The position numbers and the translations under genes are program-made. The notes below the pieces were generated by a model. That model worked only from the letters and a program-made list of their open reading frames with translations. It did not search any database and had not been told where the DNA came from. From Gimesia benthica (GTDB taxonomy: Bacteria > Planctomycetota > Planctomycetia > Planctomycetales > Planctomycetaceae): DNA of 64,000 nucleotides. Every line of letters starts with the position of its first letter. The first letter of the stretch is position 1. The DNA lies in NCBI RefSeq assembly GCF_009720525.1, contig NZ_CP043930.1, forward strand, positions 2,329,501 to 2,393,500, given 5' to 3'. This document shows positions 35,594-62,732 of this stretch, in pieces.

Positions 35594-36988
35594 TTACCGA
35601 CCAAAACCCAATTTTTTGATAATCGCCTGGTTCAGCGTCTCACGGACGGCCTCGACAGGGATTCGATCGAATACGGTCTGGAAAAACCCTTCCACGATCA
35701 TATGCATGGCCTCATACTCGGACATGCCTCGCGACATACAATAGAAGATCTGCTCTTCATCAACGCGCCCGGCCGTTGCACCATGTGTACAGCGTACATC
35801 ATCCGCCTCGATCTCCAGCCCTGGAATCGCGTCGGCTCGACAGGTGGGGGAAAGCATCAGAGAATCGTTGCGCTGATAGCCGTTCGTCTGCTGGCCTTCT
35901 TTTTCGACACGGATCATCCCACGCCAGATGGAGCGGGCCTGATCCCGCAGTACCTGCTTATACAGCAGGTCAGAACGTGTTTCAGCCGCGTTATGTGACT
36001 GTTGCGTGTAGAACGAATGGATCTGATTATCAGTCGAAAAGGTGACACCATTGACTTCAGCTTCAGAGCCACGGCCATCCAGAACGACGTCCTGGTGAAT
36101 GTGAGCCAGCTTGGCACCGATTCCTCCGACGGTCCACTGCAGGAAGCCGTTGTTTTCGACTCGTCCCGCCTGGTGAGCAATATGCCACACCTTGTGATTC
36201 CAGTTTTGCAACTGGACATATCGCAGGCGCGCCTCTTTCGCGAGAATCAGTTCAACGGCCCCCACATGCAACCCGAGCAGATCATCGCTCACGGAAGCGG
36301 TTTCCTCCAACAGAGTCGCGGAAGCCCCCTCTTCCAAAATGACCAGAGTGTGACTCAGGTCAGCTGCCTTGTCAGCCTGAAGTGTGATCAGACTGTGAAG
36401 CGGAGCATCCACAACCACATTACGAGGCACATAAAGAACGGTACCACCGGTCCAGAATGCGGCGTGCCATGCAGAAAAGCGATCACGCTGACTGTCAACG
36501 GCCCGAGTCATAAAGTAGGGCTGAATCAATTCGCCATGTTCGCGAACCACTGTCGCCAGGTCGCCAAAAATCACTCCTTTGGCCGCCAGTTCTTCCGACA
36601 TTTCGCTGGAGATCAACTGCCCGTCTGTGTGCTTCACATGACCAGCAAAATCAGCCTGTCCGGTGAGCAGTGTTTCCGTTTCCGGTGCAGTTGACTGTTC
36701 AGCCTGTGCAGCACACAACTGAAATCGGTCCGGACGCAGGGCACGTAAATCGACACGTCGCCACTCTTCCGGATCGAGTTCCGTTTCCAGAAGCTCGCAG
36801 TAACGCTGAAATGCCTGACGCCGGGATTCGGTAACCCAGGCCGGCTCGTCGCGCGTGGCCAGAAATGCTTCAAATGCTGCTTCACCAAAACCGGCGGGAA
36901 TTTCAGCAGACGTATTCACGGACGGAGTGCTCATTGTACTCTCTGTTTTACTTTCAATATCGGAATCAGTGCGAGTCACTTCGGCCAT
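35594..36988 (-). CDS. sufD: Fe-S cluster assembly scaffold partner SufD
   Basis: A 464-residue SufD, partner of SufB and SufC in the SufBC2D scaffold. The SufB/D beta-helix domain is clear: GTVLYVPRNVVVDAPLHSLI, LVILEEGASATLLEETAS, and the C-terminal TCRADAIPGLEIEADDVRCT, HGATAGRVDEEQIFYCMSRG and MIVEGFFQTVFDRIP. A second ATG at 36934 with a GAGAG site would shorten the protein by 18 residues. It follows sufB by 71 nt. Confidence 0.92.
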   Translation of the reverse strand: MAEVTRTDSDIESKTESTMSTPSVNTSAEIPAGFGEAAFEAFLATRDEPAWVTESRRQAFQRYCELLETELDPEEWRRVDLRALRPDRFQLCAAQAEQSTAPETETLLTGQADFAGHVKHTDGQLISSEMSEELAAKGVIFGDLATVVREHGELIQPYFMTRAVDSQRDRFSAWHAAFWTGGTVLYVPRNVVVDAPLHSLITLQADKAADLSHTLVILEEGASATLLEETASVSDDLLGLHVGAVELILAKEARLRYVQLQNWNHKVWHIAHQAGRVENNGFLQWTVGGIGAKLAHIHQDVVLDGRGSEAEVNGVTFSTDNQIHSFYTQQSHNAAETRSDLLYKQVLRDQARSIWRGMIRVEKEGQQTNGYQRNDSLMLSPTCRADAIPGLEIEADDVRCTHGATAGRVDEEQIFYCMSRGMSEYEAMHMIVEGFFQTVFDRIPVEAVRETLNQAIIKKLGFGR

Positions 36989-37059: not shown

Positions 37060-38483
37060 TCAACCAATCGAACCTTCCATCTGTAATTCAATCAGTCGGT
37101 TCATTTCGACTGCATATTCCATGGGCAATTCTTTAACGAGAGGCTCAATGAATCCAGTGACAATCATGGATGATGCTTCCGCCTCGGTTAAGCCGCGGCT
37201 CATGAGGTAGAACAGCTGTTCTTCACCAATCTTCGAAACGCTGGCCTCGTGCTCGATTGCCACATCATTGTCTTCGATCTCGATGTAGGGATATGTATCA
37301 CTACGGCTTTCCGGATCCAGCAGCAGGGCATCGCAGACCACGTTGGATTTACAGCGATCCGCCTTAGGATCAACCTTCACCAGACCACGATAGCTGGAAC
37401 GGCCGCCATCCTTGGAAATACTCTTAGAAATAATTCGACTGGACGTATTCGGAGCACAGTGCACCATTTTCGCGCCAGCGTCCTGATGCTGCCCCTTGCC
37501 GGCGAAGGCGATAGAGAGAGTTTCTCCGCGGGCACCTTCACCCATCAGATAGATGGCGGGATATTTCATGGTCAATTTAGAACCCAGGTTCCCGTCGACC
37601 CACTCCATCAGCGAATTTTCATAGGCAAACGCCCGCTTGGTCACCAGATTATAGACATTGTTCGACCAGTTCTGAATCGTGGTATAGCGGAAGCGTCCGC
37701 CTTTTTTCACAATGATTTCCACGACAGCAGAGTGCAGACTTTCCGAGCTGTAAGTCGGAGCGGTACAACCTTCGACGTAGTGGCAGGAAGCCCCTTCATC
37801 GACGATTACCAGCGTCCGTTCAAATTGCCCCATGTTTTCCGAGTTAATCCTGAAGTAGGCCTGCAGAGGAAATTCGATATGAACTCCGGGTGGTACATAC
37901 ACGAATGAACCACCTGACCAGACAGCCGAATTCAAAGCAGCATACTTATTGTCATCGGGTGGAATGATGGTGCCGAAATATTCTTTCAACAGCTCGGGAT
38001 GATCACGTAGAGCCGAATCGGTGTCAGTGAAGATTACGCCCTGCTTAGCCAGGTCTTCCTGAAGGCTTCCATATACTACTTCGGATTCATACTGTGCCTT
38101 GACTCCCGAGAGGAATTTCTTTTCTGCTTCGGGTATCCCCAGGCGATCATAAGTTTTCCGAATGTCATCAGGTACTTCATCCCAGCTGCGTCCCTGTCCT
38201 TCTGAGGCGCGGACGAAATAGTGAATGTCCTGGTAATTCAGTTCGGCTAAATTCCCCCCCACTCGGGAGTCGATTTCTGTTCGAAAATCTCAAATGACTT
38301 CAAACGAAATTCCCGCATCCAGGCCGGTTCGTTTTTCATCTCGGAAATCTGGGCGACAACTTCCGCATTCAAACCTTTTTTGCCGGTAAATACATATTTG
38401 TCGGTGGGATCATGAAACCCGTATTGGTATTCACCAATATCAACGCTTTCATTTTCCGAATTGGTATCCAACCTGGTTGCCAT
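37060..38483 (-). CDS. sufB: Fe-S cluster assembly scaffold SufB, in two frames
   Basis: The main SUF scaffold protein, which carries the nascent cluster with SufC and SufD. N-terminal part 38483 to about 38256 ([10 protein letters not shown]...KSTPEWGG) is in one frame, then the rest ([20 protein letters not shown] onward to [14 protein letters not shown]) is in the -1 frame. Joined, the protein has 474 residues, the normal length, with no residue lost: ...TPEWGG|NLAEL matches SufB. Key residues are intact, including the C-terminal [20 protein letters not shown]. The break is at a run of seven G, followed in frame 0 by ATT TAG. Either one G is missing from the sequence, or the cell uses -1 frameshifting or polymerase slippage. 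A dead sufB is unlikely with an otherwise intact operon. Confidence 0.88.
38247..38261 (-). other. G7 slippery site and frame-0 stop in sufB
   Basis: On the minus strand the bases read T, seven G (38260-38254), AA, TTT, AG. In frame 0: TGG GGG GGA ATT TAG. A -1 slip on G GGG GGA gives TGG GGG GGG AAT TTA GCC, which restores Trp-Gly-Gly-Asn-Leu-Ala. The heptamer fits X XXY YYZ. Confidence 0.75.
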
Positions 38484-38590
38484 TTCAACTTCTCCCACTT
38501 TGTATTAACGGATACATCTCTCAATGTTGAGGATGTTTAGTTTTAAACTCGATCGCTTTTTTTATCTGCTACTAAAACTCTGCCAGTCAA

Positions 38591-39397
38591 CTACACAGGC
38601 TCAACGGTTTCAGAAACTTCCTCTGCAGCTGCTTCGGGATGACGTTCGCGAATACTCTTATAGCCGTGTTCGTGAAGCTCAGCAGCCAGCTGGGCATCGC
38701 CGGTTTCCACAATCCGACCCGCCAGCATCACATGTGTAAACTGCGGTTCGTTGAATTCCAGAAGCCGCTCGTGATGCGTAATGATCAAAACCCCCATCTC
38801 CGGACCGGAGAGTCGACTCAGACCTTCACTCACGACTTTTACCGCATCGCTGTCCAGACCACTGTCAGTTTCATCCAGTACAGCGAACTTGGGTTTGAGC
38901 AGGGCCAGCTGCAGAATTTCCATCCGCTTCTTTTCACCCCCCGAAAAACCTTCATTCAGGTATCGGCGAGCCATCTCCAGATCCATGCCCAGATCGTTCA
39001 TCTGCTCACGCAGTTCCTTACGGAACTCACGCATCGGAATCAGCTTTTCGCCTTCTTTCCGTTCCGGATCCCGAACGTTAGACATTGCATGACGCAGGAA
39101 GTCGGCGACTTTGACTCCTGGAATCACGACAGGATACTGAAACGCCAGAAACAGCCCGAGGCGAGCACGTTCATTCGGATCGAGTTCCGAAATATCCGTG
39201 CCATCGATTTCGATTTTACCCTGAGTAATTTCGTAACTTGGATGGCCAGCCATTGCATAGGCCAGCGTGCTTTTACCGGAACCGTTGGGCCCCATCAAAG
39301 CATGAATCTCACCCTGTTTGATTTCCAGGTTGACCCCCTTGAGGATCGGTGTGCCACTGACTGAGACATGCAGGTCGGTAATTTTCAACAAACTCAT
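38591..39397 (-). CDS. sufC: Fe-S assembly ATPase SufC
   Basis: A 268-residue ABC-type ATPase that drives the SufB-SufD scaffold. Walker A GPNGSGKSTLAYAMAG near 35-50, signature NEGFSGGEKKRMEILQLAL near 145-163, Walker B KFAVLDETDSGLD near 170, and the switch His in IITHHERLL. It has an extra acidic tail (AAAEEVSETVEPV). It follows sufR by 72 nt and precedes sufB by 107 nt to the chosen ATG. Confidence 0.95.
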   Translation of the reverse strand: MSLLKITDLHVSVSGTPILKGVNLEIKQGEIHALMGPNGSGKSTLAYAMAGHPSYEITQGKIEIDGTDISELDPNERARLGLFLAFQYPVVIPGVKVADFLRHAMSNVRDPERKEGEKLIPMREFRKELREQMNDLGMDLEMARRYLNEGFSGGEKKRMEILQLALLKPKFAVLDETDSGLDSDAVKVVSEGLSRLSGPEMGVLIITHHERLLEFNEPQFTHVMLAGRIVETGDAQLAAELHEHGYKSIRERHPEAAAEEVSETVEPV

Positions 39398-55685: not shown

Positions 55686-56303
55686 GGTACAGCCCGCATC
55701 GAGATCTCGAGATTTGTAAGTGAAGAAATGGAAGTGAGTTAACATGATCCCGAGATCGGCCCCTGACCGGAATCACAAGCGCTCAATTAAATGTTATCAC
55801 AGCTGAAGCAAATTTCCACGCTAATTCTGCTCACTTCAGGGGAATCAACCGGCTATGAGCTCTGATTACGTCGGCTTTGGTGAAGATTCAGAGGATTTCC
55901 GAGAGCGTTTAACCCGAATCTATCCAGTCGCTTGACGGCCAGACGGAGCAATGGTAGTGTCCCTAGTAAATATGCTGCAATCCGATGGCTTAACGTACAG
56001 TAGCCATATCCGCTGCAAACAGCAGATTGCCCGGACGGAACGACTTCCAACGAAGTCCCATCGGAATCACTGGATAGCAACCGCCAGAGACGAGTCTGTC
56101 TTCCAACAAAATAATCAGCAGCTGGCAAATTCTTGCCGACTGTCACGTGTTAGGAATTGAGCAGGAGAGGGGCTGAATCTTCAGTCCCGCATCTTACTGG
56201 GAAGCTGCGAGCTTCTGAACAATAGATATGTACTGGTCAGCGTCCGGTTTCTTTGCGTGAAGGGACCGACGGGCTGATTGATTAACATTTAGAGGAATTA
56301 AGT
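55686..56303. other. Intergenic region before ppdK
   Basis: About 620 bp with overlapping plus and minus frames of 69-97 codons, none recognisable. Minus frame 55853-56146 is the longest; I do not call it. No clear promoter for ppdK. Confidence 0.4.
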
Positions 56304-62569: not shown

Positions 62570-62732
62570 AAAACAATTCCTGTTACCTGTTCGGTTCAAG
62601 TTGTCAGAGACTTCAATTCTCAGGATGGATCCTGCAGAATTGACCTCGGAGTGAATTCCCCGCAATATTCTTAACAGTCTTTACTTACTGTTGTACGCAG
62701 ATTTTCACCGACCATCAATCAAACCAGCGTAT

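Follow-up and report, generated by a model that had tools for sequence, protein, structure and literature searches.

The window analysed here is a stretch of 64,000 nucleotides from the genome of the marine planctomycete Gimesia benthica, and it carries the iron-sulfur assembly gene sufB on its minus strand. In the deposited sequence, sufB is broken into two frames, of 83 and 400 codons, that meet at a run of seven G residues (38254..38260; C7 on the plus strand). The upstream frame (38247..38498, minus strand) ends at a TAG stop codon, and the downstream frame (37060..38262, minus strand) matches PF01458. Against NCBIfam TIGR01980, a sufB model of 448 positions, the upstream frame matches positions 2-79 (59.7 bits) and the downstream frame positions 58-448 (649.9 bits); only the two frames together span the model. 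The next gene downstream is sufD, an open frame at 35594..36988 on the minus strand that also matches PF01458. Upstream of sufB, an open reading frame on the same strand (38591..39397), equal in length to its counterpart in the relative G012, resembles sufC. Judged by its translation, it is a putative sufC, encoding the ABC ATPase of the SUF operon.

The minus-strand letters over the junction are ACT CCC GAG TGG GGG GGA ATT TAG. The first frame (38498-38247) ends with Thr-Pro-Glu-Trp-Gly-Gly-Ile-stop, its TAG lying two codons past the G7 run. The second frame (38262-37060) starts with GTG at 38262, opens within the same G7 and continues with Gly-Gly-Asn-Leu-Ala. One extra base in the run would keep the frame. 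The junction also contains the slippery heptamer G GGG GGA, of the form X XXY YYZ, in the correct frame for a -1 shift. An earlier description of the window made from its letters (the sequence-only reading) had reported a two-frame overlap at 38247-38262, this heptamer and a prompt stop. The strand letters, the open reading frames and the TIGR01980 matches in two frames confirm the overlap; the heptamer has the right letters in the right frame, and the stop is where it was said to be. The split in sufB is thus truly present in the deposited letters and is more than a chance pattern.

A further SufB copy would have told against that reading, but sufB is present in a single copy. When the 8.03 Mb, one-contig genome was searched, PF01458 had no matches besides sufB and its neighbour sufD, and TIGR01980 matched the same two genes and no further SufB. 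A second SufB copy was therefore rejected. A lone NifU_N protein of the SufU or IscU type is encoded distant from the suf genes (G000:C1:6356860-6357186, in a 181-aa frame).

The sufB junction in related genomes

A search for the sufB gene was positive in 31 of 40 genomes including that of the window, that is, in 30 of 39 relatives. The junction was reached in 29 of these 30 loci; G006, where 98 bases were matched up to a contig end, was left out. In all 29 relative loci the frame is continuous at the junction as Trp-Gly-x. The three nearest relatives (about 96% identical) are each exactly one base longer at the run than the window. The run itself is not conserved among them, being G4TG3, G4TG2 and G8; its letters are TGGGGTGGGAATTTA in G012, TGGGGTGGAAATTTA in G004 and TGGGGGGGGAATTTA in G008, compared with TGGGGGGGAATTTA in the window. 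A comparison of G7 with G8 in related strains had been proposed from the sequence: G008 carries the G8 allele, and in the other two nearest relatives the run is interrupted by a T.

A second collection gave a similar picture. Here 80 sufB loci were kept from among at least 591 stretches encoding a relative. Some of these loci belong to genomes already counted above, since the two collections overlap, and 79 of the 80 had enough upstream sequence to be testable. In none of the 79 was a stop found in the 25 codons upstream of the anchor. The junction motif reads Trp-Gly-Gly in 63 loci, Trp-Gly-Ala in 10 and Trp-Gly-Ser in 6. At the junction, G runs reach at most 4 or 5 residues in 75 loci, 7 in two and 9 in two, and all are in frame.

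These data bear on the possibility that G7 is genuine and that the cell obtains full-length SufB through a -1 shift of the ribosome on G GGG GGA or through slippage of RNA polymerase, which we consider very unlikely. The heptamer in the right frame with its stop two codons on would suit such a site, as would a single-copy SufB of which both halves are still conserved. Since relatives share neither the split (seen in 0 of 29 loci) nor the run, a programmed site is not supported. The downstream fold also appears unexceptional: in a test of pseudoknot-free folds, a stretch of 105 nt starting at the final G of the run had a z score of -1.63, and 14 of 200 shuffles were equally stable.

In sufB we counted 15 synonymous and 2 non-synonymous codon changes private to the window branch, distributed as 0 synonymous and 1 non-synonymous in the first half and 15 and 1 in the second. 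On this measure sufB is still constrained on the window branch with both halves conserved, as would be expected of a functional gene.

We also considered that the culture used for sequencing had recently lost one base in reality and tolerated this in part, through a two-piece SufB, leaky frameshifting or a mixed population. The alleles of the nearest relatives are compatible with this: G008 carries G8, and a G012-like allele would become G7 by the loss of one T. The T in two of the three nearest relatives at the same time speaks against a sequencing error, because a single real T loss could also yield G7. The GTG that starts the second frame could serve a two-piece SufB. On the other hand, the genome encodes no other SufB, so such a loss should be severe, and all 29 relative loci are intact at the junction. 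We regard a true deletion as very unlikely.

One-base losses in other genes

Alignment with G012 over 450 kb gave 82 groups of frame-changing indels, of which 20 lie inside open reading frames. Nine of the 20, sufB included, are single-base losses from G/C runs in the window's genome. The reverse case, a loss not in the window's genome, occurred once among the 20 (genome position 2278962), and the remaining ten groups were set aside as A/T, short or larger indels or weak open reading frames. In eight of the nine cases the affected gene is shortened here, whereas every relative covering the site has it at full or almost full length. The intact lengths of these genes are 347, 464, 479 (sufB), 758, 1158, 425, 869 and 817 aa; two of the changes are mild and near gene starts (464 to 453 aa and 869 to 834 aa), and for the 817-aa gene two relatives could be compared, G004 lacking coverage. 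The ninth loss, at 2421459, leaves a long open reading frame and is not among the eight. For sufB, 2396836 and 2421459, the G012 allele also has a substitution in or beside the run, and plain shortening is seen against G008 or G004 only. A T loss at 2220682 was not counted, as no open reading frame of the set exists there in G008 either.

A second stretch, chosen by position before inspection, was aligned over 137,691 bases. It contained 34 frame-changing groups, nine of them in open reading frames, with two clear losses in the window's genome (in 579- and 407-aa open reading frames of G012). An opposing pair at 3057494 and 3057657 was ambiguous, and the others were not used. Clear gene-breaking G/C-run losses thus number ten in about 589 kb aligned. 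Outside sufB, genes with a one-base G/C-run loss lie at genome positions 2295020, 2304749, 2396836, 2444926, 2489165, 2494507, 2572514, 3062232 and 3070756, the last two on comparison with G012 only.

A scan for genes that are broken in just one of the four genomes returned seven rows for the window's genome, three for G012, two for G008 and one for G004. Five of the seven are internal breaks (347, 479, 758, 1158 and 425 aa, the 479-aa gene being sufB); the other two (193 and 367 aa) fall short at the N terminus and were set aside, as they probably reflect different start sites. In G012, a 402-aa gene is broken internally and two genes fall short at the N terminus; in G008, a 188-aa gene is in two pieces and another is short at its N terminus. 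The single G004 row (511 aa) is a partial match with 87% identity.

In Pfam, the seven broken genes other than sufB matched DUF1559, EF-hand, reverse transcriptase, SurA-like or PPC families, or none, and none of the seven carries a label of a known essential gene. The broken genes alone therefore do not prove an error. In Table 3 of PMC7716864, in the part available, G. benthica has the highest gene density of the rows, 806 genes per Mb compared with 775-798 in the others. Split genes could, among other things, cause this.

The other broken genes also allow recoding to be judged beyond sufB. An in-frame G GGG GGA lies at the break in sufB and in the 758-aa gene (2396836, no Pfam match), a coincidence that recoding would account for. 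At the breaks of the other six genes no in-frame X XXY YYZ heptamer was found; two of the six have one well before or after the break. Recoding would leave these six of eight unexplained, whereas base loss explains all eight. Moreover, any one-base loss from an in-frame G7A run leaves G GGG GGA anyway, so the presence of the heptamer is weak evidence. Frameshifting or slippage, the second option of the sequence-only reading, therefore finds little support: the heptamer is its one sign, in a run that is not conserved, next to a seemingly unremarkable fold and in a genome where six of eight broken genes lack such a heptamer where the frame is lost. The 758-aa gene is nevertheless the best lead for testing recoding. 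A scenario in which G7 is genuine, the sole SufB is made only when the polymerase or ribosome slips, and the 758-aa gene is recoded likewise is highly doubtful. If it were true, iron-sulfur assembly would be tied to slippage in one lineage; a real split would make an iron-sulfur scaffold that seems indispensable reliant on recoding.

Run deletions in four related genomes

An alignment of 464 kb around and including the window was made with the collinear stretch of G012, and G008 and G004 were then added with 400 kb each. About 361 kb are covered by all four genomes, and tip-private one-base deletions in runs of at least 4 were tallied there. The window's genome has 15, compared with 1 in G012, 6 in G008 and 1 in G004. 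For G/C runs the numbers are 9, 1, 1 and 0, respectively. As the relatives' alleles differ at the site, sufB is excluded from both the 15 and the 9. Treating the tips as equal, though their true branch lengths are unequal, binomial tests gave p = 5e-5 for all runs (15 of 23) and p = 1.3e-4 for G/C runs (9 of 11). G008 has the most private indels overall (54). In the four-genome comparison, no insertion in a G/C run of at least 4 was private to the window's genome. An excess of one-base run deletions over the sister genomes, as homopolymer errors would give, was thus found.

Coding sequence or its edge is hit by six of the 15 private deletions, each time in a C run; the corresponding numbers are 1 in G012, 2 in G008 (both in A/T runs) and 0 in G004. 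The other nine are intergenic, though only about 15% of the covered sequence lies outside the coding mask. This bias resembles ordinary selection, as it would act on true mutations, and some of the 15 deletions are therefore probably real.

Within the window, the G/C runs of at least 4 that differ in length are shorter in the window in four of four cases, against each of the three relatives. One C run, at 55760-55764, is C4 in the window and C5 in all three relatives. It adjoins the start of a 161-aa open reading frame on the minus strand whose counterpart has 175 aa in two of the relatives but 141 aa in the other, and is possibly a base loss of the same kind. Another, at 62658-62662, is likewise C4 against C5 in all three; here the run is found at the 5' end of an open reading frame of 342 aa on the minus strand, the counterpart of which has 320 aa in each of the relatives.

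Across the genome there is no shortage of G8 runs: the ratio of G8 to G7 runs is 44:275 in the window's genome and 42:296 in G012. Systematic shortening of G8 was therefore rejected, G8 being as frequent as in the sisters, and any under-calling would be sporadic. This result tells against the error explanation in its crude form.

The excess on the window's tip could also be produced by a mismatch-repair mutator accumulating run deletions. However, mutS (880-aa frame) and mutL (669-aa frame) are open and equal in length to those of the three relatives. Losses from G/C runs without gains, many of them in runs of 4-6, are unlike the mutator pattern and make a poor fit. With mutS and mutL intact, we judge a mutator strain to be extremely unlikely.

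Our data indicate that the sufB of the organism is very probably intact and that the deposited sequence lacks one base through a homopolymer under-call. In such a case, the assembly would have under-called a G/C homopolymer, leaving one base absent at the sufB junction, and the living strain would carry a continuous sufB and make an ordinary full-length SufB. The loss of one G in the assembly was the first option of the sequence-only reading. It gains support from the relatives, which are in frame with G8 in one of the three nearest, and from other long genes that lack single G/C bases and are intact in relatives. Because several other genes show single G/C losses, the cut in sufB is most likely a sequencing mistake, and we infer that its missing base belongs among the assembly errors. 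The case is a caution, as a closed genome seems to carry gene-breaking one-base losses from G/C runs. Apparent pseudogenes and frameshifts in this genome are unsafe to treat as biology without a check of the reads.

Comparison with known systems

Programmed -1 ribosomal frameshifting of the dnaX type uses an X XXY YYZ heptamer that is A-rich, a nearby stop and a stimulatory structure. The sufB junction resembles it in its correctly framed X XXY YYZ and in the stop close by. It differs in that the site is not conserved, that no marked stimulatory structure was seen and that the heptamer is G-rich instead of A-rich. In insect endosymbionts, RNA polymerase slippage rescues homopolymer frameshifts in long A/T runs of AT-rich genomes. 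The likeness here is a conserved gene broken at a homopolymer; on the other hand, the run in sufB is G7, and in the other seven genes the breaks fall at runs of 3-6. In the portions of the literature on sufB and frameshifts that were available, no split sufB of this kind was found, and in several of those papers sufB denotes a tRNA suppressor.

The missing base at sufB also resembles errors of long-read sequencing. According to PMC12007338, long-read errors are mostly short homopolymer indels, and deletion errors in the nanopore assembly of that study were commonest after runs of four to five. In that account A/T runs are worst hit, whereas the six private coding deletions observed here are all in G/C runs. 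Common to both are one-base deletions, runs of about 4-8 and a spread over many genes.
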